DNA from: a virus
Strand: one strand, 5' to 3'
IMG/VR virus record: IMGVR_UViG_3300045581_000655
Location: 1 to 49,171 of that record
DNA: 49,171 nt
The position numbers were made by a program, and so were the translations under genes. Within the stretch, counting starts at the first letter, position 1. Every line of letters begins with the position of its first letter. The notes under the pieces were generated by a model that saw only the letters and a program-made list of their open reading frames with translations, ran no database searches and had not been told where the DNA came from. Positions 8,401 through 48,535 of this stretch are shown piece by piece.

Positions 8401-10268
8401 TCTTCACCAATTACACGCAGACCTTGAGCTGCAATTACTTTTAGAGAATGGCTGGTATATAAGGTTCCGCCGGCATTAACTACGTCAGATCTAGCACTGT
8501 CAAAATTAAATGTGTAATCACCAGCTGGTAATGCAGCACTTAACAACGGATTCAGATCTACAGTTAACACTCCGGAACCAGGCACAATAGGCAATAATTT
8601 TCCGCTGCCTGGAAGATTAGTACCAAAGACTTTGATAGTATCGTCAGTGGCCAATGAGTAAATAGTCATTTCAATTGGTTTACCACTCTCTACTACGTCT
8701 GGTCCTTCAACTTTCATCACAAACTGTTTAGTCACTGTGACTTGAAGTTCTTTTGTAGTTTTTAAATCCACGCTGGTAAAAACAAATTTGTAAGGACTAG
8801 TTCTACCTAATAGTCCGGTAGTAATTTGTTCCACTATACGACCATCACCGTTGCCAATGTCGGTGACGCTGGGTATAGTACCGCTTAATGTACGGTTAAA
8901 TTCTATGTCAATTGCAGATCTACTAAGATATCCTAGCTTGCTGCCAAATTCTGTATGATAATTATCAATCCAGGTATTAATAGTGCCAGCGTTTGTGCCG
9001 CTGGCTAATGCCGCTGTCCATGCTGCACGAGCATTAGGATAATAATCTAAATAGGCACTGTCAATGGTAGGTTTACTGAGATACCAATTAACAACGTCAT
9101 TGGCTTTACTGGTAACAGTAACTGAGTACGGTGTGTTCTGTGTAACAGTGCTGGCGCCAGACACATCAAATTGTTTAAGAGCTTCAACTTTAACATTGTA
9201 TGTTAAACGATTAGTTGATATTGACCCATTAAAAACAAAAGTAGCCAAAGAACCTACTACCAATGTAGAACTTTGGGTAGCACTTAAAAGTTGTATTGGT
9301 TCAACTTGGTCACTGCCTAAATTAGTCGGCAACGATGCATTATTAAATGAACTTGTTGCTATTCCTGGGTGATTATAAAATACATTTTCGTTAGGTGCAC
9401 CACGTAGTGTAACAACCAATGGGTTTCCGGCTGCTACCATACCTGGAGGATCTGTGGCGAAACTTAACAGGTAATATCCTTCTGAGGTTATAGTTACTGT
9501 TTTATTAACAGGATCTGCTGTTAAGTTTCCATCAAATGTATAACCATAATTACCCGGCGTAGATTCTCTACCTCCTCTGATATCACTGATACTCATGGTA
9601 CCAGTTGAATCTAATATAACATTGCCAGTTATACCTGCTGCTTCGCTTCCGGCCGCCCCAGTATAGGTAACAAACTCTCCAGGGTAACCTTTTATGGTTA
9701 AAGGAATCGGAGTTCTAAATGCCACTGTGCTTGGCATGTCCACTGTCAATCTCTTGGCAATAATTCTAATTTTCCCAGATCTGGCCAGCTCATTGGCGAT
9801 ATTAAATTCACCGTTCCATAGTGTGATTTCAACTTCTCTGTCCACATCAACTGGACTGGTACTTACTCTGAAAGTACCTGTTAAACCAGTGGAGGGTATT
9901 GAACCAGGACTATATTTGGCTGTTAATCCGTTGCCTGTGTATAAGATTTTTTGATTAACATTAACTGCATACCATTTAAGTACTGACGTAGTATTAGCGA
10001 CATTAACTGCCCAATTGAGCACAATGTCAGAACCGGCTTCAACCTGATACTTGACTGGAGTTAAAATCCACGTTGGTGATCTTAGTTCTTTGTAAAAACC
10101 ACCTTTTTGGGCACTGGTATTAACTTGCCCAGTAAGTGCGTTATCAGCGAAATCACTGGCAGCGATGGGTCCAGAACCTAATCCGTCTATGGTGATTATT
10201 TGACTGTTGGCTACAAGAGTCCTACCTACACCATCTTTCCATAATCTAACTATAATTTTTTTGGCCAT
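5454..10268 (-). CDS. Ig-repeat tail fibre/adhesin with PA14-like and glycine-rich domains (1604 aa)
   Basis: The N-terminus (MAKKIIVRL, SQIITIDGLG) is paralogous to those of the genes starting at 5451 and 19798, and the same beta-sandwich follows (about 75-175, ending LARSGKIRI). Ig-like repeats then run to about residue 880. Two carry an inserted Y-x-x-YP...HY...GS module (SAYLDYYPNARAAW near 9060 and HAYFSLYPDVREAF near 8300). Residues about 913-1350 form a glycine-rich domain with an embedded PA14-like beta-sandwich (about 945-1048, containing SVYIDGNEV). The C-terminal 250 residues are Ser/Gly-rich beta structure ending in NGKIHPN and are not recognised. A 33-base gap with an AATAAATA box precedes the gene; no good Shine-Dalgarno is visible. 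It is a probable distal receptor-binding fibre. The glycine-rich part resembles the polyglycine-helix fold of T-even gp38 adhesins, which is inference. Confidence 0.85.
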   Translation of the reverse strand: MAKKIIVRLWKDGVGRTLVANSQIITIDGLGSGPIAASDFADNALTGQVNTSAQKGGFYKELRSPTWILTPVKYQVEAGSDIVLNWAVNVANTTSVLKWYAVNVNQKILYTGNGLTAKYSPGSIPSTGLTGTFRVSTSPVDVDREVEITLWNGEFNIANELARSGKIRIIAKRLTVDMPSTVAFRTPIPLTIKGYPGEFVTYTGAAGSEAAGITGNVILDSTGTMSISDIRGGRESTPGNYGYTFDGNLTADPVNKTVTITSEGYYLLSFATDPPGMVAAGNPLVVTLRGAPNENVFYNHPGIATSSFNNASLPTNLGSDQVEPIQLLSATQSSTLVVGSLATFVFNGSISTNRLTYNVKVEALKQFDVSGASTVTQNTPYSVTVTSKANDVVNWYLSKPTIDSAYLDYYPNARAAWTAALASGTNAGTINTWIDNYHTEFGSKLGYLSRSAIDIEFNRTLSGTIPSVTDIGNGDGRIVEQITTGLLGRTSPYKFVFTSVDLKTTKELQVTVTKQFVMKVEGPDVVESGKPIEMTIYSLATDDTIKVFGTNLPGSGKLLPIVPGSGVLTVDLNPLLSAALPAGDYTFNFDSARSDVVNAGGTLYTSHSLKVIAAQGLRVIGEEYTLPNQTYSIVVRSSVGDVINITRDPITFTSTSDHAYFSLYPDVREAFRSQFIITTPVNYANKHYTEIGSKEGRVSPTDAEKYLTTDLPPTQTIQTAALVKPNSSVDYGEVTVPIGTYRYSMVNPIVLQVRGRQQQVVHDFKVSFGDGIQVFGPQTSQVESVPITIKGKQDELVTVYKITKGQDGIPTPVTNVDGTNQARRFRITRSDGYLSTDLIGDGILSLTPGADNRYYFFGDKSSGSAELSVVGADLVVQTGTALLYQGAFGSEARLEDMLGGAELPTGSVWVMFKMLGGGGGGGGSDFESLATLTPVISAQNSAYNSVQILPSWGQGWLNIYGIWNTDINSASFERTYNFTLATTGSYKIRFMCDNGGSVYIDGNEVVTAITNYSAPMTAYEKDINLTAGVHQIKLVGINTGGPGSLGCTIQDTANSIWFGTHALPAQTPRGRTGGRGGSAAALRGIVKITSTATKKLIGAVGRGGGGGNGSSSGAAGGRGGSGFTLPYSATSHGTGGDGGAAGGVGSSGGGGGGGGSSLLAVRLISGQEISIAAAGGGGGGGGASWIPNNLTEPANHGGGGITGSSLIPVYKEVTQQSDGSYTAAAATGSGTLPVTLRSSGEAGQTASVDGGGGGGSGQGYISTADAAATAGVKTGVSGGAGGSDSVSDGRAGTSGTALINAGLVWQAKEYLAGKVGTISPNDYIGHRDFYGHGGTDQGGNGRNGAISVYWTNSIAAPTDWGLLPEFPPVTLEGINAVPIGDPAINVTVDLPGGISLNGYWSSGGDYKNVYIKIFGDGRMEWGKDGQVTQADFLWCKIDGKAAGNNIASMYRMRFTPLTGTFTYPAIPGTPGRSSSWSSSSPSTNFATGGITIGSDNATLTAVRQFVPGGGVSFSGSTPGRSGIPSSSTTGHPWRGSNNVSSTTLGRSVVATFYNNTTVNYYCPGAPQTNSYPNYSGTARLEIIDKDDKVLKTCSIAVNGKIHPN
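6215..7530 (-). other. Glycine-rich domain with embedded PA14-like sandwich in the 1604-residue fibre
   Basis: A run of eight glycines opens the domain near 7500-7530. The PA14-like part (about 7120-7430) has YGIWNTDI, then SYKIRFMCDNGGSVYIDG and GVHQIKLVG, and ends at GCTIQD. Gly-rich segments then continue to AISVYW near 6220. The same arrangement occurs in the 2268-residue adhesin. Confidence 0.7.
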
Positions 10269-10301: not shown

Positions 10302-13300
10302 TTACTCATCACCAAATTGTAACCCATGCCCGAGGTTTACGTTAGTTGGAAATAATATATTAATTGGATTGGGCGTATTCACTGATCCGCCACCTGGAGT
10401 CGTATACACTGGAGCTCCTGGTTTTACCCAGGTAACATCACTTGGGACTCTAGTGCCATCTGTTCTATTTGTAATTGTACCAATATTACTGGTACTCTCA
10501 CTGCCCCCGGGTCCTTCTACATATAGTTTAAATGTATATCGTCCGCCAGGAGTAAACGTTCTATTTCCATAGGTGCTTAAAGCAGCCCCACGTGAGTAAC
10601 CGCCCATGATACTTTCCTGGGTGGTATACTTGTGCTGTTCATATGGAAACGAAGCTGGTCCAGGAAAATCATCACTGGGTGTTCCGGAAATCATATCAAT
10701 TCTTAAAAGAGTTATTTCTCCCGACGTTGTCCATCTAAAACTTCCTGTGCTGTCGACGGAAAAGGTTAGTATCTTAGGTGGTGGTTTAGTTGTGGCACCG
10801 CCTGGAGTGCCCCCTGGAGTGCCCCCTGGAGTGCCCCCTGGAGTAGCAGGAACACTACCTCCCATACCAGGAGTTCCTGGAGGATAGGTAGTAGCTTCGC
10901 CGGCTATGTAATCTGAATCTTTAGGTGATATGGCCTGAATCTTAAATGAGCAAGCACTTTTATTTTTGGCAGTGCTTGCTATAAGAGTACCAGATGTCCA
11001 ATCACCTTTCCCTGTACCCTTTGTGGCTTCGTCGTCACCGTAGGGTTGTCTTCCTTGGACACCTGGAAAAGTGGTTTTAATACCAGTATTGACAATGCGT
11101 ACTGTAACTGTTTGATTAGATTTCGCAAAACCGGAATGACATACTATACTACTGAGATTGGGGCCTTGAGTAGTTCCGTTATCTAGATTAACAGGGCCCC
11201 ATAGATAGCCATACGAATTGCTGCCATACATGTGACCACCACCAGCACCCAATGGATATTTTGCGATTCCTTGAACAGTAACTTTACCGTTACTGCCAAA
11301 CACTATACCTGTGCCATAAAATTTAGCAGATTGAATCCATGCTTTTGATCCATCATAAACATTAGGACAGCATGTTTCAAAGTTAACCGGCTGACATTGA
11401 GTTGGATCAGTGGGATCAACAGGAGGAACAGATTGCTGCACTTCTCTTTTTTCTAATTTAAATGAGCAGCTTCTGCGTGTCATTGATGCCGAAGTTACCC
11501 CATTGGCGGTTTTGCTACCAAATGTAGTTTTAGATCCATTATTAATAATGCGTATATTCCCGGTCTGTCCATCAGAAAAGATTCCAGCATGTACCACTGC
11601 CATGCTGATATCTGATCCCCAGGCATAGCCTTCCTCGTTATCTCCCCAAACCACACCCGATCCATTAACTTTTGCACCAGTGACACTACTATTACCATTT
11701 ACTATTGACTGTTGGAGTCCAGGAACAGTAACTCCAGAAAGAGTGGTAGTAGTATTATAGACCAATGGACAACAATAAATGAAATCAATGGGAGTACATT
11801 GTGTAGTAGGTGAAGGGCCACTAGGATTGAATAACCTTACAGCACAAGAATCGCCGTCATAGCCCAAACTTTGTATGCCATTGCTGTTGGTACCAGGAAA
11901 TCCATATTTGTTTCCCAATGGTATAATTTCTATAGAACCAGTTTCGCCGTCAGCCAGTAAACCTGCGTGTACCACCGCTTTTCTAAAATCTGATTTAAAA
12001 CTATAACCAAAAGTGTTATTTCCAAATACCTCACCAGCCGAGCTGGAACTACCAGTGATTGTAGCAATGTTGGATGCATCAGCTGGGGTACTGAAACCTT
12101 CTAAAGTAACTTGAGCATAAGAACTAGGACATACATTAGTTCTAGCAGTGCCTTCTTCCTTCTTTAAGGTATAGGCGCAATAAGAGGTTGAAGAATCGGT
12201 ACTCCTTGAATTGACACCATTGCTAGTACTACTGGGAAAAGATTTTTTCCTACCAATGGATGTGATCTTAATTAATGCTGTTTCGTTATTTGAAACAATG
12301 CCGGCATGGATAGCAGCTTGACCCCAATGACTATGTTCTGCGTATCCAAAAGTATTATTACCATACACTGCCGACGCGGCCAATTTGGGTGCTATACTTC
12401 CACGCACTGTACCAATATCAGCGGTAAACGCACCATACTTTTCACCACCTTGATCATAGATCATCATACCCTTGGGACCAGTGCCTATAAACAAAAAACT
12501 GCCAGTTTGATTAAATGCTGCCGTTGAACAAGCTGTATCATCAATTGGTGGATCCGGATCCACAGGTGTAGGTGGTTGTGTAGTTTGAGTAATAGTCAGT
12601 TTAAATGTTGCAGTATTACAGGTTTTAGTATTATCTGTAGTAAACGTCCAGGTATAATTATCAGGTGCTATAGTGTGCCCTTCAGGTAATAGAGTAATTT
12701 CTTCTTTACCATCGGGACCTAAGTTTACCCCTTCAACAGAGCTGGTCACACCAGTGTAATGTACTATGTCGTTTTCACGGCCAGTTATAATAACTCTAAC
12801 TAGTGCACCGGCTCTAAATGTCGAAGCACCAGTGGCACTGGCCACCGTCAATTCTGATCCTGGATTTACTCTAAGAGTAAAGTTCCTTGTAGCTGAACCA
12901 CCAGCAAACGACATACCTGCTGGCGGGCTAAAATTAAACGTATAATCGTATCTGCCAGGCACCACAAATTGTCTAGGTTCAAAGGTATATGCTCCACCAG
13001 AACCTAAGTTAAGATTAGGAATTTCTTGTCGTCCAGTTCCATTGGTCAAACTTCCAGCAGGACCAGTTATAACCAGAGACATACCTGCTCCTGGGGGACC
13101 ATTGCGTATTCCTACAGTGGCAGTACCACACTGCGTAATGGTGTTACCAACAAATGGAAATGTGTTAACTGTGGTTGGGTAAGGTGGTAGAGTTGTAGTA
13201 CTGGTTGTGGTAGTGGTTGGTACCGGCACTAAAATAGGAGGTTGTGTAGTAACTGTGCCAGTTGGTGGTGCTGCTGTAAAATTACCAGTCCAGGTCAGAA

Positions 13301-16300
13301 CATTACCATTGGCATAACTATATCCTGTGGGGAAATAAAATGTATAGGTATATACACCTGGAGTATAAAATTGTTCGACCGGGCCCAGGTAACTACCGCC
13401 GGGATCCAATTTGTATTCGTCTATTAGATTCCCTGCCAGTGTATTGGGTGGTCCTGACTTTTCTACTCGTACTCGTTCACTGTAAGGCCCACCAACAATG
13501 GCAATGCTGAAGTCAGTTTTAACGTAATTGGTATACTGTCCGGGTGTGGTGTTAGCTGGATAAATCTTAGGATCGAATATTGTTGGAACTTCCACTGTAT
13601 CGATACTGTAGTATAATTTTTCAGTTTCGCGCACAGATGTTATTCTAAACAAACCTTGCGTGTTTTCTTCCCACAATAACAAATTAGCGCCAGTATCGGG
13701 GTTCTGTCCAAAAATAGAATACTCGCCGGTTTTAGCACCATAAAAGTTCTTAATAGAAATCACAGCCCTACTAGGAATCGGTGTTCGTATATTATCTGGG
13801 AAGCCCACAGTACCTAAACGCACTATACCTTGACCAGCGTAATATTCACTAAGTGCTAAATCCCCAGAACATATTATATCCTCTTGAGGCAACGGATCAG
13901 GTGGTTTGATACCTTTTTCTTCTTGTTTTACTACAAAACTATGAGTACCAATGGCCACAAACTGATGCAGCACTACACCGTCAATATCAGTGATAACACC
14001 ACCAGTGGCCCTCACTGGGGATGGATATTTTACAATAACAATACCGCTGCCACCGTTACCTGCTCCGCCCCATGGGCCACTAAAAGCACTACCGCCACCA
14101 CCGGTATTAGCAGCTCCGTGGTTACTTGCAGCAGCGAATCCGCCATTGGTTCCTCCTCCGCCAAGGCCACCAGGATATGGGTAGTTAGTGCTGTCAGTGC
14201 CGCCACCGCCACCGCCATAGTACTTGGCGAAACCAGTGATTTCTTTACGGACTCCGTTACCACCCGCACCATTTGTATTACCTATTTGTGCTGCTCCACC
14301 ACCACCCCCACCTAGTTCAATAATACCGCGATCAATGAATGTGCACGAATTTGATCCTGCATTAAATGTTTTAGAATTGGTAAGTGCTCTAGCAGCTTCT
14401 ACTGTATCAGGACTCGCGGCCACTGACCCAAAAAATGTATCAAGAAAAGGTTTATCTGTGATTAACCAATTTTTATCTAAACAAATTTTTGTCCAATATG
14501 CTAGACCACCTGCGTCAGCTTTTCTAAACAATCCATATCTAGTATCACCATTACTGAGAGTAAACGCATTGTTTGATACATAAACATCTTGAATATTTAG
14601 AGCTCTTTTCTTGAAAGCTAGCACATCATATCGATCTTTAAATTCGTTAACAAAGTTATCAATGTCATAACATTTGCTGGTACCTACTGCACCAGCGAAA
14701 CCTTGGAGAGCAACACCTGTACCTGCTAAACGTCCCGAATTAGTTCCACCACCAGATCCGCCATTACCTCCATTGGCCAATCCAGCACTGCCGGCCCCGC
14801 CACCACCACCAATGGCAATAAGTTTGTCAAATTTTGAATTTTGTCCATTGGAGACCTGTAATCCAGACTTAGATGCATTAATAATAACTACTAGACCGTT
14901 TCCTGATGCACCTGAGCTATCACCCCCGCGTCCAGTAATGCCTTTATAGTGTTCGTCAGCTGAATTACCAGCCAGCGACTGATCACCGGTGCTTTTTCCG
15001 CTGTCACCTATAAACAGTTTACCATCACCAGTCTGGCATATACCACCCCCGCCACCACCGCCACCACCGGCCGACGATGACGATCCACCACCGGCACCAC
15101 CGCCAAAGCCTGCTGTTTCAGCAGGTAGAGCATTTGTAGCAAATGCATAATAAGATTCATCCTGCGTGGTTATGGTACACCCAACTGCCGGGCCTATTTC
15201 ATTTGTGGGTAATTTTGGTGCATCTAAAAACACCGAACAACCAGTGGAACTAAAACTATTAAATGTTTTTACTGATGTACGCGATCTTGCTGATTCACCT
15301 GGATCAGCATCAACTGCACTGAAAAAGATTTTATAGAAATCAGCTGAAGTCACATTCCAATTATTCTGATACGATCCTTTAGTCCAATATGCTAAACCAC
15401 CAAGATCCGGTAATCTACCTAGTCCATACCTTTTGGTACCGTCTGGCAACGTAAACTGTGTATCAACTGTTAAATATAACTGTGCAATTTTATCAGCTCT
15501 AGATTTAAAATCATTGAAATCATTGCTACCACGATTAGCGTTTACAAAATCGTCCATGGTATAACAACGAAACGCAGTTACTTCGCTGACTAAACGTATT
15601 TTCCTTATACCCTGTGTTATTTGAATTTTTGTTTCTACTGAAGCACTGTATTGTTTTGACTCTAGTACACGTATTCCATCAATGTATAACGAAGCTAGAT
15701 GTTGAGCTCCTAGTTTAACTTTGTAGCTATCTGTTTTAGTAAAATTTACATAGTAAGTTCTATTAAAATAATCACCAATAGCAGATCCATTTGATAATTC
15801 CCATACACCATAATAATGGAGCCATGGATAGTGCAACGAGTTATGAACAAGTCCTACTGTGATACTAGAAGTTCCACCTGAAGTACCAATGCCGTCAGTA
15901 CCCTGCGGTCCTGCACGACCGTAACTACCTTGTCCATTGCCGCCGCCACCGGCTGGATTAATTGAACTACGATTACCACCTGCCCCGCCACCGCCACCGG
16001 CTACCAATAGCCCAGTTTTATCTAAAGACAGACCTTTGATAGCCGAAGATCCACCACCACCGCCACCTGCATAGGCTTTGAGTTTATAATCAGGCGAAAC
16101 GATGTCAGAGCTAAAGAATTTTATTTCACTGGTACCGCCATCTTTGTCACTTAAATAATAAGGTTTATTATCACCAACTGCAACCTTCAATCCTACAGTT
16201 CCTGCATTTGGCGGTATACTAATTTGTACATAACCATTGGAAAAAACCAAATTTAAAGCAACTGGGTGTACTGCTGCCCTAATAACAACGTCATTATTGC

Positions 16301-17108
16301 CATTTAGTACCAATACCGCATTGCCCATACTTTTTAATCGGTACTGTGTGGTTTCTTTATTAAAATATATAGTGTTAATATTTTGATCAGCAAGCGCATT
16401 CACTGATTCTTGACTGGCAATTATTTTTCCACCAGAATATTTGTAATCTTCCTCAATGAATATAGAAGTACCACTGTTTGAACCATAATAGTTAGCATTG
16501 CGTAATAAAACTAACACCGGGTCTTTAGTGGACAAATTTACCCTTGGTCTATTATCTGTGCTGCCTGGAGGTGGTATCACTGCAATTTTATAATCAGGAT
16601 TCATTGCACTATATTCTAGTGCACCATTACCACCTGTACCATAGCCGTATCCACCTAACTCAGTATCTTGCTGAGTTCTTGCCAGTCCACCTGCACCGAC
16701 CCAAATTTTCCATGTTTCGGTTTTACTTACGCTGATATTAGTTTTTACAATACTGGCTCCGCCACCGCCTCGTGTGTTAACACCGCCTTCACCACGACTG
16801 CCGCCGCCACCAGCCCCCCATAATTTTACCGTGTAAAGTCCAGGCTTAATGGTAACTTCATATTCCCCGGGTATGTCAAAATAAGTAGGAGGTTCAACAG
16901 ATTCACTTGCCGCCCCATCACCCTGTACAGAAGAATTAGTAGGTGCTTTACCACCAGCACCCACAATAACTTCAATATTCTGCCCGGCTGTGACCAGGTA
17001 ACCTGCATCATGGATTACACCACCACCGCCACCACCACCGGCAATGTCTTGGCCGCCAGCACCACCACCGGCAACCACTAATACTTCAACTTTACTAAGA
17101 TCGGTCAT
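10302..17108 (-). CDS. Giant glycine-rich / LCCL-domain adhesin (2268 aa)
   Basis: The protein starts directly in a glycine-rich domain (VLVVAGGGAGG, residues 1-70), followed by more glycine-rich segments to about 1035. These are interrupted by a PA14-like beta-sandwich (about 420-510) and two copies of a DUF4214-like module, each bracketed by Cys (515-624 and 813-922). A motif ending AVISIKNFYGA (about 1105-1125), frequent in marine phage fibres, follows. Then come three Ig-like repeats with a Thr/Pro-rich linker (near 13165-13225), four tandem LCCL-like domains (about 1543-2061; AAIHAG, AVVHAG, AVVHAG and SSIVCHSG cores), a GTPGG-repeat linker and a C-terminal fibronectin-like domain similar to the end of the preceding 893-residue protein. 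It starts 8 bases after the upstream stop, with weak AGAG before the ATG. It is a probable receptor-binding protein. LPS or glycan binding is inferred from the LCCL family. Confidence 0.86.
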   Translation of the reverse strand: MTDLSKVEVLVVAGGGAGGQDIAGGGGGGGVIHDAGYLVTAGQNIEVIVGAGGKAPTNSSVQGDGAASESVEPPTYFDIPGEYEVTIKPGLYTVKLWGAGGGGSRGEGGVNTRGGGGASIVKTNISVSKTETWKIWVGAGGLARTQQDTELGGYGYGTGGNGALEYSAMNPDYKIAVIPPPGSTDNRPRVNLSTKDPVLVLLRNANYYGSNSGTSIFIEEDYKYSGGKIIASQESVNALADQNINTIYFNKETTQYRLKSMGNAVLVLNGNNDVVIRAAVHPVALNLVFSNGYVQISIPPNAGTVGLKVAVGDNKPYYLSDKDGGTSEIKFFSSDIVSPDYKLKAYAGGGGGGSSAIKGLSLDKTGLLVAGGGGGAGGNRSSINPAGGGGNGQGSYGRAGPQGTDGIGTSGGTSSITVGLVHNSLHYPWLHYYGVWELSNGSAIGDYFNRTYYVNFTKTDSYKVKLGAQHLASLYIDGIRVLESKQYSASVETKIQITQGIRKIRLVSEVTAFRCYTMDDFVNANRGSNDFNDFKSRADKIAQLYLTVDTQFTLPDGTKRYGLGRLPDLGGLAYWTKGSYQNNWNVTSADFYKIFFSAVDADPGESARSRTSVKTFNSFSSTGCSVFLDAPKLPTNEIGPAVGCTITTQDESYYAFATNALPAETAGFGGGAGGGSSSSAGGGGGGGGGICQTGDGKLFIGDSGKSTGDQSLAGNSADEHYKGITGRGGDSSGASGNGLVVIINASKSGLQVSNGQNSKFDKLIAIGGGGGAGSAGLANGGNGGSGGGTNSGRLAGTGVALQGFAGAVGTSKCYDIDNFVNEFKDRYDVLAFKKRALNIQDVYVSNNAFTLSNGDTRYGLFRKADAGGLAYWTKICLDKNWLITDKPFLDTFFGSVAASPDTVEAARALTNSKTFNAGSNSCTFIDRGIIELGGGGGGAAQIGNTNGAGGNGVRKEITGFAKYYGGGGGGTDSTNYPYPGGLGGGGTNGGFAAASNHGAANTGGGGSAFSGPWGGAGNGGSGIVIVKYPSPVRATGGVITDIDGVVLHQFVAIGTHSFVVKQEEKGIKPPDPLPQEDIICSGDLALSEYYAGQGIVRLGTVGFPDNIRTPIPSRAVISIKNFYGAKTGEYSIFGQNPDTGANLLLWEENTQGLFRITSVRETEKLYYSIDTVEVPTIFDPKIYPANTTPGQYTNYVKTDFSIAIVGGPYSERVRVEKSGPPNTLAGNLIDEYKLDPGGSYLGPVEQFYTPGVYTYTFYFPTGYSYANGNVLTWTGNFTAAPPTGTVTTQPPILVPVPTTTTTSTTTLPPYPTTVNTFPFVGNTITQCGTATVGIRNGPPGAGMSLVITGPAGSLTNGTGRQEIPNLNLGSGGAYTFEPRQFVVPGRYDYTFNFSPPAGMSFAGGSATRNFTLRVNPGSELTVASATGASTFRAGALVRVIITGRENDIVHYTGVTSSVEGVNLGPDGKEEITLLPEGHTIAPDNYTWTFTTDNTKTCNTATFKLTITQTTQPPTPVDPDPPIDDTACSTAAFNQTGSFLFIGTGPKGMMIYDQGGEKYGAFTADIGTVRGSIAPKLAASAVYGNNTFGYAEHSHWGQAAIHAGIVSNNETALIKITSIGRKKSFPSSTSNGVNSRSTDSSTSYCAYTLKKEEGTARTNVCPSSYAQVTLEGFSTPADASNIATITGSSSSAGEVFGNNTFGYSFKSDFRKAVVHAGLLADGETGSIEIIPLGNKYGFPGTNSNGIQSLGYDGDSCAVRLFNPSGPSPTTQCTPIDFIYCCPLVYNTTTTLSGVTVPGLQQSIVNGNSSVTGAKVNGSGVVWGDNEEGYAWGSDISMAVVHAGIFSDGQTGNIRIINNGSKTTFGSKTANGVTSASMTRRSCSFKLEKREVQQSVPPVDPTDPTQCQPVNFETCCPNVYDGSKAWIQSAKFYGTGIVFGSNGKVTVQGIAKYPLGAGGGHMYGSNSYGYLWGPVNLDNGTTQGPNLSSIVCHSGFAKSNQTVTVRIVNTGIKTTFPGVQGRQPYGDDEATKGTGKGDWTSGTLIASTAKNKSACSFKIQAISPKDSDYIAGEATTYPPGTPGMGGSVPATPGGTPGGTPGGTPGGATTKPPPKILTFSVDSTGSFRWTTSGEITLLRIDMISGTPSDDFPGPASFPYEQHKYTTQESIMGGYSRGAALSTYGNRTFTPGGRYTFKLYVEGPGGSESTSNIGTITNRTDGTRVPSDVTWVKPGAPVYTTPGGGSVNTPNPINILFPTNVNLGHGLQFGDE
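10801..10836 (-). repeat. 12-bp tandem repeat encoding GTPG linker
   Basis: Three exact copies of cctggagtgccc (plus-strand spelling) are followed by a diverged fourth. They encode the flexible GTPGGTPGGTPGG linker between the LCCL-like block and the C-terminal domain of the 2268-residue adhesin. In-frame gain or loss of units would be tolerated. Confidence 0.9.
10925..12480 (-). repeat. Four tandem LCCL-like domains in the 2268-residue adhesin
   Basis: Domains span roughly 12160-12480, 11825-12135, 11445-11770 and 10925-11373. Each has the LCCL order: a (V/M)(Y/F/W)G-x-N-x-x-GY segment, a core (QAAIHAG, KAVVHAG, MAVVHAG, IVCHSG), a beta segment with G-K/N/S-x-x-F, then NGV-x-S or NGIQS in the first three and a closing C-x-(Y/V/F)-x-(L/I). 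Domains 2-3 and 3-4 are joined by Cys linkers of pattern TQC-x-P-x-x-F-x-x-CCP-x-VY. The fourth is the most diverged, with an insertion before its core. Confidence 0.8.
14343..14672 (-). repeat. Cys-bracketed DUF4214-like module, copy B
   Basis: Residues 813-922 of the same protein, from CYDIDNFVN to the Cys of GSNSC. The core is RYGLFRKADAGGLAYWTK, followed by NW, a Phe-rich helix and KTFNAGSNSC. It shares the frame of copy A, including the terminal Cys, and is flanked on both sides by glycine-rich sequence. Confidence 0.75.
15237..15566 (-). repeat. Cys-bracketed DUF4214-like module, copy A
   Basis: Residues 515-624 of the 2268-residue adhesin, from CYTMDDFVN to the Cys of SSTGC. It contains KIAQLYLTV, RYGLGRLPDLGGLAYWTK and the closing KTFNSFSSTGC. 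The (Y/L)xxR-x-PDxxGLAYW core is the DUF4214 signature. It has exactly the same Cys-to-Cys length as copy B and sits inside a PA14-like/glycine-rich region. Confidence 0.75.
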
Positions 17109-24018: not shown

Positions 24019-25203
24019 TTAGGTTCTGCTTTCTAATTCGGCTACTTTCTGTTCTAGGGCCTTTATTGATTCTACCAATAAAGGTACCATTTTTTCATAA
24101 TTAACTGCTAGGTATCCAGTTTCACGTTCAATAACAGCCTCAGGCTGGATTGTTTGAACTTGTTGCGCCAACAAACCTACTTCGTTGATCAACGGATCTT
24201 TGTATAAATCTTCAGAGTTCCAGTTAAATGTAACTCCAGAAATCTGTTTTATTTTGGTTAATGGATCTTCTATGGGTTTAATGTTAGTTTTTAGTCTAGC
24301 ATCACTACTGGTAAAGGCTATAACATCGCCTTCGGCCTTAACATCGCCATTGCCTAACACTGTTAATACCTTACGATTGGTCTGCGAATCCAATGGAGTC
24401 AAATAAAGTTCTAATCTTGTTGGCTTAACTGTGGGAGACCAATCCCCATCACATCTAAAAACAAGGTATCCTTGATAGTTACTAATTACCGAACCATCAA
24501 AACCATGTGCAGCTAATGCCCCAATGGCATCATTGGATTTAAGTGCTAACATACTGTTAGAAGTACCACGAGCTCTTCTAAAATTAATGGTGCTAGCAAT
24601 TCCAATTGAATCATAAGCAGGCCTGTCGCCATAAGCATCTACTACAATTCTAGTACTGCGCCCATTGAGATCATCGTCGCCGTGTATGTGCAGACCAACT
24701 TCCTGTCCATTACCAGACACCTGCGGAAAGTTATTAAAGATTCTTAAAGTGGTTTTAGCATTATTAACTTCTAATTTGCCAGCAGCCGGCGTGCTACGCC
24801 CAATAGCATGGTTTCCAGTTACTGGTGTAACACTCATACCCTTTACACCAGCTACTCTAAATGGTGGAGCTCCGCTGTCCTTTTGTACAAACACATTGTA
24901 ATGAACATTCAGACTGCTGGTATTAAGTTCAACTCCGGCTCCACTGTTAACAAACTCTTCGCCGTTATAAACTTTTAGAACTTGATCTACACCATCGTAC
25001 CATAATTGTCCTTTAATTGGACTGGGTGGACTAGTCTGATTTGAAAAATTTTCTAATAGGTGAACAAGATTTTCGTTAAGACTTTCACCATAGCCAGCGT
25101 AGTTTTTACCAATTAGTGTTAAACTGGTAGTAACTACATCTGCTGTTCCTTCTTCAATTGTAACTAGTCTATCGCCGTTGCTTAAATTAATGTGATAAGG
25201 CAT
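24019..25203 (-). CDS. Tail fibre protein with C-terminal intramolecular chaperone (peptidase S74) domain (394 aa)
   Basis: The N-terminal 85 residues (start MPYHINLSNGD, then LTLIGKNYAGYGE, then GQLWYDG...LKVYNG) match a domain common at the start of marine T4-like phage fibres, probably for virion docking. A central beta-rich section follows. From about residue 298 a full S74 endosialidase-type chaperone runs to the end: SSDARLKTNIKPI, GLLAQQVQ, LAVNYEKMVPLLVESIKAL, then a short C-terminal coiled coil. The chaperone is known to drive trimerisation and self-cleave between the Ser and Asp of the SSDAR motif. The start is supported by a Shine-Dalgarno GGAGAG four bases upstream. It sits between the 204-residue virion protein and the 1395-residue S74 fibre. 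Confidence 0.93.
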   Translation of the reverse strand: MPYHINLSNGDRLVTIEEGTADVVTTSLTLIGKNYAGYGESLNENLVHLLENFSNQTSPPSPIKGQLWYDGVDQVLKVYNGEEFVNSGAGVELNTSSLNVHYNVFVQKDSGAPPFRVAGVKGMSVTPVTGNHAIGRSTPAAGKLEVNNAKTTLRIFNNFPQVSGNGQEVGLHIHGDDDLNGRSTRIVVDAYGDRPAYDSIGIASTINFRRARGTSNSMLALKSNDAIGALAAHGFDGSVISNYQGYLVFRCDGDWSPTVKPTRLELYLTPLDSQTNRKVLTVLGNGDVKAEGDVIAFTSSDARLKTNIKPIEDPLTKIKQISGVTFNWNSEDLYKDPLINEVGLLAQQVQTIQPEAVIERETGYLAVNYEKMVPLLVESIKALEQKVAELESRT

Positions 25204-41863: not shown

Positions 41864-44800
41864 TTAGATCCTAAAAGTTCTATTAGTGTTTGACAGGCTT
41901 TGATTGAGTTGATTAACATTGATACTGCTGATAATTTCTACATCATTGGCTGTAGCTGCACTAATAATAATTTCATTTGGCTCACAATTTATTTGATACA
42001 ATGCACCAAAATCAACATCAGGATCTCGCGGAACAATTACCACACTGGCCACCTTAGGAGTAAGTTCTTTGTGTAGATAAGCTGCCAGTTCGCTAAAATA
42101 AAATGTTTCACCAAAATCCCAATTTTCTGCTGCAAAGTATTCGTTAATTGCATTTATTACACTGGTTTTTACATCAGTGTCAGTTATATTTAAGCTAGGA
42201 TTTTTCACCACCTTAAACACAGCTTGCAGTGCAGATTCTGCCTTTGACCCAAATAATGGTTTAAAGGTAGCACTATGGAATATCATGGTGTCGCTAATAG
42301 TTTTAAACTTTTCTAGTCCTGCATAGTCAACCTGTAACTCAGTGCTAGTAGGAGCAGTTGGTTCAAGTAAACGTCCTGTAACATCTTGAATATATCTTCT
42401 ATAAGCACTATTATAAGCTGACGTTAGTACATAGATGTCTATAATGTTACTGATGTTAGGATCAACTCTATTGGTGTTAGGACTGTTATGTCTATATTGA
42501 AAATATAGGTTCTGCAAACCAGTTTCATATTTGTATTGACTATACTTGCCAGGTTGATTGGTATTCAATGGCGGACTTATCACCTTTTGTCTACTAGCAT
42601 TGATATCAATTTTAAAAAACTGCATGGTATTTACAGCAAAAAACAGTTGTCCAACATCATAGTTGTTAATTACCGGTAGTAAATCTTTGATATTTCTAAA
42701 TGCAGTTATAATATTTTCTTTTTTAATCAATCTCCATGTCTGAAACTGATCATACCTACTTTCAATTAGTTCAAAAAATACTAATTTGTTTTCAGGATTT
42801 GTAAGAGGTTCTACAATATGTTCAAACAGATAAGGGCTGTCGGGCACACTATCATCATTGGTATCGGCAAAAGTTACATATATGCTTTTGTTATCAATAA
42901 ATCCATCATTACGGCGAACCGGCTTATGGACTTGCCATACAAAATCTCGACCTATACTGGTAGGATTATTGTTTGCATCTAATTTAGAATTATTTTTTAA
43001 TACCTTGATATGATCCCTTACTACACTATTATTAAAACTATCGTAAACCTGCAGGCTAGGGTCATAAAAGAAATTGGTTTCCTGTTCACTGTAGAATACA
43101 TAGCGCAGTTGTTTGGTTTCAATTATGTAATTTTCGGCCTTGCCATCATAATAGAATGTACAGATAACTGAAGGATCATATTCAAAATTATTTTCTATCA
43201 CGTCCCAACCAGGCCAACTTACTGTGTCCTTGCTTTTGGAATCATAAAAGGGATTACTATTAACTGGTACCACGTCCATAACATACCGCAATCCAAAGCT
43301 AGAATAATTGCCAATTTTTTGTAGCATCCTGGTTTTTACATAATCAGGAAGACTATTATTAAATTTTGGAATTACCGAATCTAATATGGCACCACGAGGT
43401 ATTTTTAAATTAAGAGCAATAGGCCCAACACCGGTATTAGAATTCCCTTTATAATTGTTGGTGCCATCGCCCTTTATGTGCATAATGGCCGCATACATTT
43501 CGAGTTTGTCGTCCACTGTGCCTGGTACACCAGGCACAAGATTATTAACACTGTTAAAATAGTAATTTGGCGGTGCTACAAATTTAACCAGTGCACCAGC
43601 TTCGCAAAGGAAAAAGTTTTCATATTTGGCACCTTCGGCGGTCATCTTGGGCGATACAGGTTTCCTATTAACATCGAAGTACCCGGTGCTGGTGCTGTCT
43701 CCTAAGGTACTGGCTGTCCAAGTGATATTTTTCCTTACAGTGCCACTGCCATAACTTCTAATGTTTATAGTGCCTGACATGCTGGTGCTGTATTGACTGA
43801 TATAATAGAAGGTTATAATACCATCATCACCGGTTTCTATATTAGAAGTATCCCAAACTATTCTACCGTTGTCAGTACCATTGTTGTAAATAGTACCCTG
43901 TCCATTCACTGCTGACTCAGAACCAGTGACTTTAACAGTCTTGATCCATAATGGGTAACCCGGAGTGGCTACATCTAAAACAAGAATGTCTCCTACTCTA
44001 AGATCAAAAGTGGGATTATAAGGACTTAAAATATTGCTAAAATTATATACTAAATTATTTTCAACAATAAGATTGGTAACGTTATGGATACTGGTTTTGC
44101 GTCCTACATTGGTAGCTAGAAATTTTAACCCTACAATGTTTGAACTAGCACCAAATTCTGTAAAAATGGTAGTACCTAGTCGTTCAATTTCGTAGATCTC
44201 GCCTTCGATCATTTCCGACGCAGGTAATGACACTGTGGGCAATTTTTTAGCTTCTACCATGTCATAGTACTGATGCAACATTTCTTTGCTGCGTAGAATT
44301 TGTGCCTCAACTACATTAGCAATAATTGCCTGTATGTCGTATTGATTATTAAATGTAAAGGCAATATTATCTTTTACATATTCTCTGTAAAGTGCGCCGT
44401 CGGCACCAAAAATGTTGGTACTGCTGTATCTTCCGGTTGTGTCAAGTACATCAAGATAACGACTCAACCCAGAGCTGGTTCTATTTACTGCTTGTACTTT
44501 GAGAATACTGCTATAGTTAGTGTAGGGAAGGATATTGTAATCCTCCCCGGTGACCATGCGATTTTGTGTATAGTATTGTTGAGGAGCTCTTTGTTTTATA
44601 CTGTCGGCTGATTCTCTTGCGCTGGCATTAGCCACTGTGTATCTTAGACTAGCACGTATGGATATAGTTTCAACTCTACCAAATCTACTGATATAGTCTA
44701 AACTTACTTCCACACCTTGCATTTCGTCGGGTGTAATTTTATAAGTTAATCCATTACTGGTTCTATAATATAGTCGAAAAGGTCCGCTGGGTAAATTTGT

Positions 44801-45844
44801 GAATATTCCGTCACCAAAAACTAAACTAATTTGGTCATTGGTACGACTGTTAACTTGATATAAATTTCTTGCAGAATCTGATTTATTATAAATGACATTC
44901 ACGCCACTAACTGCTGGAACATTAGTCCAGAGTTGGTCTGTACGATTAGCACTGTCCAAACTATAAAGCCAGATATCGTTATTGTTAATATTGTTTGTAT
45001 CTATGTTTACTACTTTGTTTGCTACTACTTCGTCCACGCTAAAATCTATAGTTTTTAGTTCGCCTTGTTTAAAATATAAAAAATACCCGGTGTTGTTGCT
45101 GCTGTTGCCTAGGCCATCATTCATATATAAGAAATTAAACATCTTGCCAAGGTTTGGGGCTTCTTCGTAGACATAGTTTTGTCCTGCGCTGGTAGGACTA
45201 ACAATTTCAAAAGTCATGTCTTGATTGTCTACACTTGTGGAAAATCTGTAAACAGGTAGCACATCTTTCGTAATATTAATGCCGTATTCTTCGGTACGAA
45301 TACCGTTCACAGTGTTACGATTGCCAGGTTTTCCTACGCTCTGAGTACTGACCATTGCTGCATTTAAAATAGCTGTAAACTGTTCTAACCAATTTTCGTT
45401 GCTGGTGTCATTCCAATTAACAACCAATGTACTTAAATCGTTACCGTCGCTGTCATAAAGTAATTCAGTGGTTGACACTGAATCAATTTTGATATAGCCA
45501 GTGGCAGCTTGATTACGCTTAGGATTGTAACTTACCAGTCTTGCTAGTTTAAGAATACTATCTCTGCGTTCAGCAGTATCGATAAAATTTTCGCGAGCAT
45601 TTAGATCAGCTCTAAATGCCAGACTCTGACCAAAGAAAGCTATAAGATCAATTAAGGCAATGAATTCAGAACTTTCTGTGAAGTCATTGAAATCTTCCGG
45701 GTAATTACGCTTGACATAGTCAATCATGGTCTTACGCAAAGTTTCAAAATCGTAGGCAGTGAAGTCAGCCTCACGGAAGGTCTGATATACCTTCTTCCAG
45801 TTTTCTGCGCTGAGTAATCCAGTTTGACGTGAAATTATTGCCAT
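41864..45844 (-). CDS. gp6: Baseplate wedge subunit, T4 gp6-like (1326 aa)
   Basis: The N-terminus is typical of gp6: DFETLRKTMIDYVKRNYPED, then ESSEFIALIDLIAFFGQSLA, then ENFIDTAERRDSILKLARLV. In T4, gp6 dimers form the inner ring of the baseplate wedge, and the family is related to gpJ of phage P2. At 1326 residues it is about twice T4 gp6 (660). Much of the extra length is beta-rich, including a cupredoxin-like insert at about 612-700 that lacks metal ligands. The C-terminus keeps a wedge-type segment (VIVPRDPDVDFGALYQINC). The gene lies between gp25 and the giant structural gene, as in marine T4-like phages. A GATAAATA late-promoter-like box lies 18-25 bases before the start. Confidence 0.93.
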   Translation of the reverse strand: MAIISRQTGLLSAENWKKVYQTFREADFTAYDFETLRKTMIDYVKRNYPEDFNDFTESSEFIALIDLIAFFGQSLAFRADLNARENFIDTAERRDSILKLARLVSYNPKRNQAATGYIKIDSVSTTELLYDSDGNDLSTLVVNWNDTSNENWLEQFTAILNAAMVSTQSVGKPGNRNTVNGIRTEEYGINITKDVLPVYRFSTSVDNQDMTFEIVSPTSAGQNYVYEEAPNLGKMFNFLYMNDGLGNSSNNTGYFLYFKQGELKTIDFSVDEVVANKVVNIDTNNINNNDIWLYSLDSANRTDQLWTNVPAVSGVNVIYNKSDSARNLYQVNSRTNDQISLVFGDGIFTNLPSGPFRLYYRTSNGLTYKITPDEMQGVEVSLDYISRFGRVETISIRASLRYTVANASARESADSIKQRAPQQYYTQNRMVTGEDYNILPYTNYSSILKVQAVNRTSSGLSRYLDVLDTTGRYSSTNIFGADGALYREYVKDNIAFTFNNQYDIQAIIANVVEAQILRSKEMLHQYYDMVEAKKLPTVSLPASEMIEGEIYEIERLGTTIFTEFGASSNIVGLKFLATNVGRKTSIHNVTNLIVENNLVYNFSNILSPYNPTFDLRVGDILVLDVATPGYPLWIKTVKVTGSESAVNGQGTIYNNGTDNGRIVWDTSNIETGDDGIITFYYISQYSTSMSGTINIRSYGSGTVRKNITWTASTLGDSTSTGYFDVNRKPVSPKMTAEGAKYENFFLCEAGALVKFVAPPNYYFNSVNNLVPGVPGTVDDKLEMYAAIMHIKGDGTNNYKGNSNTGVGPIALNLKIPRGAILDSVIPKFNNSLPDYVKTRMLQKIGNYSSFGLRYVMDVVPVNSNPFYDSKSKDTVSWPGWDVIENNFEYDPSVICTFYYDGKAENYIIETKQLRYVFYSEQETNFFYDPSLQVYDSFNNSVVRDHIKVLKNNSKLDANNNPTSIGRDFVWQVHKPVRRNDGFIDNKSIYVTFADTNDDSVPDSPYLFEHIVEPLTNPENKLVFFELIESRYDQFQTWRLIKKENIITAFRNIKDLLPVINNYDVGQLFFAVNTMQFFKIDINASRQKVISPPLNTNQPGKYSQYKYETGLQNLYFQYRHNSPNTNRVDPNISNIIDIYVLTSAYNSAYRRYIQDVTGRLLEPTAPTSTELQVDYAGLEKFKTISDTMIFHSATFKPLFGSKAESALQAVFKVVKNPSLNITDTDVKTSVINAINEYFAAENWDFGETFYFSELAAYLHKELTPKVASVVIVPRDPDVDFGALYQINCEPNEIIISAATANDVEIISSINVNQLNQSLSNTNRTFRI

Positions 45845-45889: not shown

Positions 45890-46261
45890 TTATCTAGTAT
45901 TTTCTTTCATATTGCGTTCAAATTGCATGACTAAACGGTCAACTTGATTAGATGGTATGAAGGTTAATACCAGCTCTATTTTCACTCCGTCGGTGAATTC
46001 GGTAATGATGATATTCTGTATGCCAATTCGTGGATCATACCCAGCTATGCGTTTAACATCTTCGGTTATAGCATCTTTTACAGAATCCGTAAAAGGCTCA
46101 AAAATAACATCCCAAATTATAGTTCCAAAATTTGGGTTCATTAGTTTCTCGCCCTTGCGTATATGAAAATGATTGAATAAATCCTGCTTAGCCAAGTCAA
46201 AATCACTGATTTTGAACTTGCGTATTCTATTATAGGTACTGAATCCGTTATAGGTGGGCAT
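45890..46261 (-). CDS. gp25: Baseplate wedge subunit, T4 gp25-like (123 aa)
   Basis: The length and sequence fit the GPW/gp25 family. The conserved core is KGEKLMNPNFGTIIWDVIFE (residues about 36-55), followed by DAITEDVKRIAGYDPRI and a beta-strand pair ending VLTFIP. In T4, gp25 joins gp6 and gp53 at the core of the wedge and helps trigger sheath contraction. Homologues are universal in contractile systems (TssE in type VI secretion). It lies 45 bases upstream of gp6 and 15 bases downstream of gp5, so the three form one operon. No strong Shine-Dalgarno is visible before the ATG. Confidence 0.96.
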   Translation of the reverse strand: MPTYNGFSTYNRIRKFKISDFDLAKQDLFNHFHIRKGEKLMNPNFGTIIWDVIFEPFTDSVKDAITEDVKRIAGYDPRIGIQNIIITEFTDGVKIELVLTFIPSNQVDRLVMQFERNMKENTR

Positions 46262-46276
46262 AACTATTATTTAACC

Positions 46277-48535
46277 TTATCCTTGACCTGCAAGGGTATC
46301 AATGGCATAGCGTCCACGATTAAAATAAGTAGCTCCTGTGGTATTGTTAGCATCCTGGCCGCTAGAAGTTTTGCGCCAGTTGTTAGCGCCGCCAGCTCCT
46401 AATAGATGTGCGGTTTGTAACATACCACCCACTATCGACGGATCATCTGTGTTTTTAATGGCACCATTCCTTACCATTCTGTCGTAGTTAATTTGTGTAT
46501 ATCCTAGCATGGCTTTTTCTTGAGCAGCAGGATTGTTTAAAAAATCTTCTTGACTTTTAACCCCATCTTTACCAGTCCAAGCGTTAGGATCAGACAATGC
46601 CTTATTTCCACCTTTAAGACCTCCATATTGCTCAAAAGCCGCCTTACTGATATGCCCGGTCTCTACTAGAGCAGCGGCGCCCATTTGATATCTACCAATG
46701 TACTTTGTTTGTTTATTAACCGCGGAATAGTCTCCATCACTTTCATTGTAAGATATTTGCGTCATCAAAGCTCGTGTTTGCTCTTTAGTAAGCGACCCAA
46801 CACCAGACTCTGGATTAGGTGTAGTAGCTTTTTTAAGTTCACTCGGGGGAGCACCTCTTGTAAGTCCTTGTTGATTTGCTGCTACGATGCCCGGATCATT
46901 GCTTTGAGCTGCGCCGGTGGTCAAGACTGGATTACCCGAACTGTCAGTTACTGGATTACCTGAACTGTCAGTTACAACATTAGGTGGTTGCGACACTGGG
47001 GCACTGCCTTGAGTAATTGGTCCTGCAGGTTTACTGGTTGAAGGTTTAGCGGCCTGCGATCCAATGAAATTACCGTTTTGATCTTTTGATGCAGTGTTCT
47101 GTGGTGCATTACTTGATGAACTGCTTTCTCCTTTGAGGCGTGTCCAAGGTTCATGAGTAGGCACAATTGGCGCAATGCTGACCAGTTGCCCTTTCTTAAC
47201 TTCCCATTTTAATTTTAACTTTTCAGTTTCGTCGAGTTTATTGACTGGCAGGTCCTGCGGTTTTGCAACCTTGGGACCTTTTCCGCTGTTTAATTTAAGT
47301 TTTTCTTCTCCATGGATGATAATCTCTGCTTCACTGTGCAAACTTATATCAGAAGGTGTGTAGTGGCTTATAGTTCCGTCTGCCCCTATTTTGATTTCTG
47401 CACCGAATATAGTAGTAGCGGCCCCAGATCTAGTAATAAGTTCTCGGTCTCCATGAATATTAATATTATTTTTTACTTTTAGATTAAACGTCCCACCTAC
47501 ATCAATATTAACATTTTTATCAACATGAAGATTGAAATCTTGTTTAGTCCTAACATTTATACTATTACTGGCGTAAATGTTTAAGTGTCCGGTATTGGTC
47601 ATTTCTATCCATACACTGCCGCTGCTATTGGTTATATAAAGAATTTTTTCTTCATCGTCCATGAGAATCTCATGGCCCCCGGCACTGCGCCACCTTGTAA
47701 GATTACTGGTGCTGTCTTTGTCACCATCATCCATAACAAAGGTGTGACCCCCCAGTCTGGCCTTGATATTACGCTGCGCTAAACTTAGGTCCGGTGTTGG
47801 GAACGCCTGCTTATATGGCCGCCCCGGGGTACTAAACCCAAATGTAGTGCTTGGTGTTTCTCTCTGGCTGGTGGTTTTTATCATACCACGATTTTTCGTG
47901 AGATTATATCTGTCGAGACCTTGTTCTAGTAATATTCTAACCTGTGGTTCGTGTATGGGTTTTTTTGCATTGGTAAAATCTTTCCAGTTTAATTTTTCTT
48001 TACTTTGAAATTCATTAAACTCTGCCACTGGATAAAACTGTCCAGGTTCGATGGCTTCTTGTAATTCGTTATCATCCAGTTTTTCTGTATCTATTTTGTT
48101 GCTTGACCCAATCGCAGGTATCATATGATGGCCAAGTTGATTAAGAACTCCTGCGAACCAAAACCCTCGATTAGGATCTCCGGCAACAAAAATACAAAGT
48201 ACTAAATTTCCTAGGTCAGGCACAGGATACCACATTCCATAGGTATGTTGTACCTTGCTGAAACTGTTTACACCAGATGCCCAATCGTCGGCATCTTTTT
48301 GACTGGTTGTGCCTATATAAGGACTAGCATACCATACTGTACGCCAATTGGTTGAATTATTTTCATCACCACCATGATCGGGAATCCAAATACGCAACCT
48401 TCCAGAACGAGTTGGATCTACGTTATCCTTGACTACGCCGATATATGGACCCGGATCATATCTGAAAGTGTTGGTGTTCTTTCTAAAATGTGCTGGTATC
48501 CTACGATTTACTCTTGAGTCTTGATTAGCTGCCAT
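46277..48535 (-). CDS. gp5: Baseplate hub / tail needle, T4 gp5-like, with C-terminal peptidoglycan-hydrolase-like domain (752 aa)
   Basis: Residues about 30-150 are the gp5/VgrG-type OB-fold (YIGVVKDNVDPTRSGRLRIW, WYPVPDLGNLVLCIFVAGDP, WFAGVLNQ). Residues about 325-440 are short alternating repeats of beta-helix needle type (NINIHGDRELITR, EIIIHGEEKLKLN). A Ser/Thr/Pro/Gln-rich linker with two TDSSGNPV repeats follows. The C-terminal 170 residues look like a lysozyme or lytic transglycosylase: ISYNESDGDYSAVN, then YIGRYQMGAAAL. The Glu of NESDG (about 594) is the likely catalytic acid. In T4 gp5 (575 aa) the lysozyme lies between OB-fold and beta-helix; here it follows the needle. It starts one base after the upstream stop. 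The enzyme family assignment is less sure than the gp5 call. Confidence 0.92.
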   Translation of the reverse strand: MAANQDSRVNRRIPAHFRKNTNTFRYDPGPYIGVVKDNVDPTRSGRLRIWIPDHGGDENNSTNWRTVWYASPYIGTTSQKDADDWASGVNSFSKVQHTYGMWYPVPDLGNLVLCIFVAGDPNRGFWFAGVLNQLGHHMIPAIGSSNKIDTEKLDDNELQEAIEPGQFYPVAEFNEFQSKEKLNWKDFTNAKKPIHEPQVRILLEQGLDRYNLTKNRGMIKTTSQRETPSTTFGFSTPGRPYKQAFPTPDLSLAQRNIKARLGGHTFVMDDGDKDSTSNLTRWRSAGGHEILMDDEEKILYITNSSGSVWIEMTNTGHLNIYASNSINVRTKQDFNLHVDKNVNIDVGGTFNLKVKNNINIHGDRELITRSGAATTIFGAEIKIGADGTISHYTPSDISLHSEAEIIIHGEEKLKLNSGKGPKVAKPQDLPVNKLDETEKLKLKWEVKKGQLVSIAPIVPTHEPWTRLKGESSSSSNAPQNTASKDQNGNFIGSQAAKPSTSKPAGPITQGSAPVSQPPNVVTDSSGNPVTDSSGNPVLTTGAAQSNDPGIVAANQQGLTRGAPPSELKKATTPNPESGVGSLTKEQTRALMTQISYNESDGDYSAVNKQTKYIGRYQMGAAALVETGHISKAAFEQYGGLKGGNKALSDPNAWTGKDGVKSQEDFLNNPAAQEKAMLGYTQINYDRMVRNGAIKNTDDPSIVGGMLQTAHLLGAGGANNWRKTSSGQDANNTTGATYFNRGRYAIDTLAGQG
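46926..46973 (-). repeat. 24-bp duplication in the gp5 linker
   Basis: Two 24-base units differ at one base (46937 versus 46961) and encode TDSSGNPV twice. They sit in the low-complexity linker between the beta-helix and the C-terminal enzyme-like domain of the gp5-like hub. Confidence 0.9.

Follow-up and report, generated by a model that had tools for sequence, protein, structure and literature searches.

A tandem array of four LCCL domains in a putative phage tail adhesin

The DNA analysed here (the window) is a 49,171-base virus record, a fragment of a jumbo-myovirus genome, and it encodes a protein of 2268 residues in which four tandem repeats, at residues ~1562-2060, are almost certainly LCCL domains in an array. 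The explanation that we favour as a whole, and consider rather probable, is that this protein is a modular tail adhesin whose C-terminal third displays the four domains, and that these belong to a phage-specific subfamily. LCCL is a known family whose ligand is disputed and whose study has concerned animals and apicomplexans; no description of it in phage tail proteins seems to exist. A first, sequence-only reading of this DNA knew of no described phage fibre with an LCCL array, and in agreement with this, no paper on LCCL domains in phages was found in the open PMC literature, from which most subscription papers are absent.

The Protein and Its Four Repeats

The features of the protein, in the order of its residues, are as follows:

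10302..17108, minus strand: 2268-aa tail-module protein, a putative adhesin, with the LCCL array (ORF translation and Pfam)
16905..17099, minus strand: N-terminal glycine-rich domain PF21722, residues 4-68 (57.6 bits over four stretches, the others downstream)
12159..12425, minus strand: LCCL repeat 1, residues 1562-1650 (Pfam LCCL 45.2 bits alone; viral LCCL profile 94.8 bits)
11829..12104, minus strand: LCCL repeat 2, residues 1669-1760 (Pfam LCCL 35.1 bits alone; viral profile 95.6 bits)
11766..11804, minus strand: Cys-rich linker preceding repeat 3, TQCTPIDFIYCCP, residues 1769-1781
11448..11726, minus strand: LCCL repeat 3, residues 1795-1887 (Pfam 34.6 bits alone; model pLDDT 84.7; 1JBI the best PDB match)
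11364..11402, minus strand: Cys-rich linker preceding repeat 4, TQCQPVNFETCCP, residues 1903-1915
10929..11312, minus strand: LCCL repeat 4, divergent, with insertions, residues 1933-2060 (viral profile 22.0 bits; model pLDDT 64.6)

The Pfam LCCL profile (PF03815), which has a curated cut-off of 22.6 bits, matched the whole protein at 88.4 bits (E 3.7e-25) over three stretches. These matches span only profile positions ~22/31 to 96, leaving the classical N-terminal Cys-rich part unmatched. The core motifs quoted in the sequence-only reading were all found where it had put them, inside 10925-12480: AAIHAG at residue 1598, AVVHAG at 1711 and 1837, and SSIVCHSG at 1986 (window positions 12317, 11978, 11600, and 11153 for repeats 1 to 4). 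The LCCL core, a Tyr followed by [AV][AV][VI]HxG and then NG[IV]xS, is present, with the NG motif lost in repeat 4 (TLIAS); its Y, H, and G are invariant in 18 of 18 aligned phage domains, repeat 4 included. The paired Cys that had been noticed in the linkers are real, and the linker of repeat 3 recurs in similar form ahead of repeat 4. Neither Pfam nor the viral profile found further LCCL copies elsewhere in the window.

About 200 residues remain C-terminal to the array, which is therefore not the tip itself. Nearer the N-terminus, residues 83-162 match the ALK/LTK glycine-rich domain (30.3 bits over two stretches, cut-off 24.5), which, like LCCL, is named from animal proteins, in this case receptors. 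Glycine-rich stretches are separated by a Cys-bounded segment that occurs twice, at residues ~515-645 and ~813-925 (CYTMDDFVN...RYGLGRLPDLGGLAYWTK and CYDIDNFVN...RYGLFRKADAGGLAYWTK), and for which Pfam gives no match. The whole protein, its N-terminal half, and its 893-aa neighbour had no relatives in the viral contigs or in INPHARED, and no PHROGs family covered the array.

The Predicted Fold and the Fourth Repeat

A model of repeat 3, with the 18 aligned phage domains as input, reached a pLDDT of 84.7 and a pTM of 0.80. The comparison with the Coch LCCL structure (1JBI) that had been proposed as a check on the reading came out in its favour: 1JBI was the best PDB match for both repeats 3 and 4 and, for repeat 3, the only PDB hit with a Foldseek E below 0.001 (5e-4; VIA-align Z 8.3, 2.8 A over 87 residues). 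The models of both repeats have the LCCL fold, two beta-sheets with a helix packed between them, like 1JBI, and at the sequence level, the phage LCCL profile matched the 1JBI sequence with an E of 2.3e-8. Cochlin (Coch-5b2) thus shares with the window repeats the predicted fold and the core (G..Y...S....AAVH.G, NG[IV].S), but it is a secreted animal protein with two vWA domains, a single LCCL, and an SSIC cysteine before the helix.

Among viral structures in BFVD, the best fold match was a Klosneuvirus KNV1 “LCCL domain protein” (A0A1V0SJQ6, E 8e-6), which is likewise a virus-encoded LCCL domain, although in a 974-aa protein of a giant virus of eukaryotes rather than of a phage. Weak LCCL-like fold matches were also seen in Erwinia phage Deimos-Minion (A0A173GFW8, E 0.017) and Cronobacter phage PBES 02 (A0A0K1YAR6, E 0.047), where the matching proteins are small and uncharacterised. 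The LCCL profile found nothing in the stretch of the PBES 02 genome that was examined, so that this match is taken as a fold-level resemblance only.

The claim of four LCCL-like domains stood on Pfam alone for repeats 1 to 3, but not for the divergent repeat 4, which Pfam missed even when this repeat was scanned by itself. A profile of the 17 phage LCCL domains other than repeat 4 nevertheless found it at 22.0 bits, against a maximum of 7.1 bits among 500 shuffled versions of repeat 4; with a profile built without any window repeat, it scored 17.6 bits, and the best of the 500 shuffled versions 9.1. No other ORF in the window scored above 3 bits with the viral LCCL profile. The AlphaFold model of repeat 4 is of moderate quality (pLDDT 64.6), and its best PDB match is cochlin LCCL 1JBI (Z 7.0, 2.7 A over 88 residues). 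The remaining two PDB matches, 8i03 and 8ga8, are to Rxt3 chains in SIN3/HDAC complexes, and Rxt3 is also returned by Pfam for many of these LCCL domains. On this sequence and model evidence, repeat 4 is taken to be an LCCL copy that is divergent and carries two insertions. With three of the four repeats over the cut-off, the outcome that would have counted against the reading, no profile match together with an unlike fold, did not occur. That the repeats are not LCCL and resemble it by chance or convergence, as the lack of a Pfam match in repeat 4 and the absence of the classical Cys before the helix from all four repeats might suggest, is hardly credible and was rejected, for repeats 1 to 3 by three independent profile matches well above the curated cut-off and by fold matches to 1JBI (the only other strong members being Rxt3 structures, which are LCCL-related in these scans), and for repeat 4 by the shuffles and by its recovery with a profile built without it.

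The Gene Neighbourhood

Several genes in the window are recognisable as those of a tail or baseplate:

41864..45844, minus strand: gp6-like baseplate wedge protein (best matches Salicola SCTP-2, Sinorhizobium Phosso, and Agrobacterium Atu_ph07, E about 1e-115)
45890..46261, minus strand: gp25-like baseplate wedge protein (PF04965, 28.1 bits)
46277..48535, minus strand: phage baseplate spike with a gpV/VgrG-like OB domain (PF04717, 24.6 bits)
24019..25203, minus strand: S74 (endosialidase chaperone) tail protein (60.4 bits)

The relatives of the gp6-like wedge protein are jumbo myoviruses, including PA5oct-type phages, and their hosts are all Gram-negative. The LCCL gene is on the same strand as the gp6-, gp25-, gpV-, and S74-type genes and is closely packed, with 8 bases between it and the upstream ORF (17117-19798, minus strand) and 33 bases between it and the next (5454-10268, minus strand). 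Very long ORFs nearby on this strand have collagen-like, CBM5/12, GDSL-esterase-like, and glycine-rich matches. These long neighbours, together with the gp6-, gp25-, gpV-, and S74-type genes, place the LCCL gene in a phage tail/baseplate module.

One of the long ORFs (26014-41853, minus strand) encodes 5279 residues, very long by the standard of phage tail proteins, and has CBM5/12, GDSL-esterase-like, and glycine-rich matches. The protein encoded at 19830-24017 (minus strand) matches the ILEI domain (FAM3/interleukin-like EMT inducer) at residues 1074-1142 with 24.8 bits, slightly below the Pfam cut-off of 27, and also has an S74 match.

LCCL Domains in Other Viruses

The idea that LCCL might be unique to the window among phages did not survive: scans with the phage LCCL alignments found it in 24 other IMG/VR contigs. 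In the 21 of these 24 that were checked by Pfam, each had exactly one LCCL match over the cut-off, and the four-copy array is therefore special to the window among the viral contigs examined. The LCCL proteins of the other contigs are modular, and most have no relation to one another, as in the following examples:

L005: weak Mtd_N hit, pectate-lyase beta-helix, C-terminal LCCL
L026: four laminin-G lectin stretches, pectate lyase, C-terminal LCCL
L018: Ig-like domain, C-terminal LCCL; S74 tail protein and ILEI-like domain in neighbouring genes
L006: FnIII, LCCL
L027: SUEL galactose/rhamnose lectin, LCCL
L021: weak C-type lectin hit, LCCL

In L004, L005, L018, L024, and L026, no domain follows LCCL. 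In L005 and L026, it comes after a pectate-lyase beta-helix, an arrangement like that of phage tail spikes whose carbohydrate-binding modules are C-terminal, and which are likewise modular and sugar-related. The set of LCCL, S74, and ILEI-like domains in L018 occurs in the window too; the ILEI match there (L018:1384-5037, the gene adjoining the LCCL gene) has 25.6 bits and is again below the cut-off of 27. The phage nature of contigs of the L021 type rests on their IMG/VR assignment.

No LCCL was found by tblastn in 50,697 isolate phage records, whether the query was the whole array or one of five different domains, and no relative of the whole 2268-aa protein was found there either. A self-composed canonical LCCL query served only to widen searches and is not evidence.

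Bacterial Copies and the Moved Cysteines

A canonical-motif scan of genome contigs found bacterial LCCL at 57 loci in many phyla; a scan of bacterial genomes for the phage-type motif gave no loci. With the phage profile, 33 six-frame peptides from the bacterial loci were found to carry two to five LCCL copies, so that tandem LCCL arrays as such are ordinary in bacteria. Proteins with three to five tandem domains (L084, L068, L041, and others) are spread over many phyla. The bacterial arrays, from Verrucomicrobiota, Myxococcota, Acidobacteriota, Cyanobacteriota, Actinomycetota, and others, resemble that of the window in having two to five copies in tandem, in proteins of a few hundred residues, but they usually have a CP...YTDDSSIC cysteine pair (29 of 44) and fall outside the supported phage clade.

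That clade, seen in a tree of 63 domains, contains the four window repeats and 11 phage domains (bootstrap 100, SH-aLRT 99), and it is retained with support of 99/97 when the long branches, repeat 4 and cochlin, are left out. Its inner order is not resolved because the alignment columns are few; with these few columns, an origin of the window repeats from a single domain by local duplication had a p of 0.557 in the AU test.

The cysteines differ between the two groups. An N-terminal Cys and a Cys before the helix occur together in 29 of 44 bacterial copies, and a C-terminal Cys in one of 44; the Cys before the helix (YxxxSxxC) is present in 32 of 44 bacterial copies but absent from all four window repeats and from all 12 other phage copies counted. 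Instead, 4/4 window repeats and 8/12 of the other phage copies have an N-terminal plus C-terminal pattern (the count leaves out two phage rows, L031 and L032, both missed by the motif in the script). The Cys before the helix is typical of animal and of most bacterial copies, and is not needed to pass the Pfam cut-off; it is characteristic rather than defining, since Cys-free phage copies such as L021 score well (55.7 bits). Judged from the alignment, the phage cysteine layout is a distinct LCCL variant, and the supported clade suggests that the window repeats and most phage copies are one lineage in which the helix-adjacent Cys was lost and a Cys in the last strand gained. From Cys conservation only, the Cys preceding the first strand probably pairs with that in the last strand, which would tie both ends of the domain together; such an end-to-end bond would probably stand in for the one that usually joins the N-terminal part to the helix.

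Possible Functions of the Array

We lean towards the view, which is based on analogy, that the LCCL array binds a glycan or LPS of the host surface. Grounds for it are the tail-module context, the position of LCCL at the end of tail spikes, its lectin partners, and the animal precedent. The array would be exposed on the virion and would bind a component of the host envelope, either carbohydrate or LPS, several weak sites together giving avidity. Of the earlier proposal of an LPS- or glycan-binding receptor module on the virion, the tail setting is borne out by the gene lying in a baseplate/tail module, and the binding itself is plausible by analogy, with mixed evidence from animals.

CRISPLD2 (Lgl1) is described as an LPS-binding protein (PMC3683062). 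According to PMC10892792 and PMC3683062, LCCL proteins interact with bacterial cell-wall components, and Lgl1/CRISPLD2 with lipid A; the LCCL domains of CRISPLD2 were studied in work cited in PMC10892792. An LCCL peptide of Akhirin bound E. coli (PMC12839204). CRISPLD2 and Akhirin can thus be likened to the window protein, through published descriptions, as LCCL proteins reported to bind LPS/lipid A or bacteria, but they are secreted proteins of vertebrates. A simple lectin claim is weakened by the finding that the LCCL domain of cochlin, when isolated, failed to bind GAGs (PMC9987951).

The four repeats have diverged in sequence, and this could reflect ligand sites that are different or lost. 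A wider proposal, which we make tentatively and hold to be somewhat less probable than its contrary, is that phages of Gram-negative hosts use the moved-cysteine LCCL subfamily as receptor-binding lectins for LPS or capsule, and that the window phage does so as a four-copy avidity array.

Another possibility is that the array tethers the virion to its surroundings (extracellular polysaccharide, mucus, or particles) while another part of the tail picks the host. Capsid Ig-like domains are thought to act in this way, and the array is surrounded by collagen-like, glycine-rich, and carbohydrate-binding modules, while in other contigs LCCL accompanies Ig, FnIII, and lectin domains. However, LCCL is the very last domain in several contigs, two of which have a beta-helix tail spike ahead of it, and the end of a tail spike is where receptor contact usually takes place; we regard tethering as unlikely.

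Less likely still, the LCCL domains could be spacers or assembly modules that make protein-protein contacts in a fibre and bind no sugar. An LCCL-like fold can serve such contacts, since the yeast Rxt3 LCCL-like domains sit within an intracellular protein complex (8i03, 8ga8), and the LCCL proteins of Plasmodium function as a complex (PMC11285972). Such a role is hard to square with single LCCL domains that end unrelated phage proteins.

Significance

If the wider proposal is true, a fold used by animal innate immunity to hold bacteria is also used by phages that attack bacteria. The phage LCCL domains, of which some end tail spikes, would allow the binding partner to be tested with phages and bacteria. 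Phage LCCL would also extend the list of phage receptor-binding folds, and its changed cysteine layout would be a recognisable mark of the phage lineage in metagenomes.
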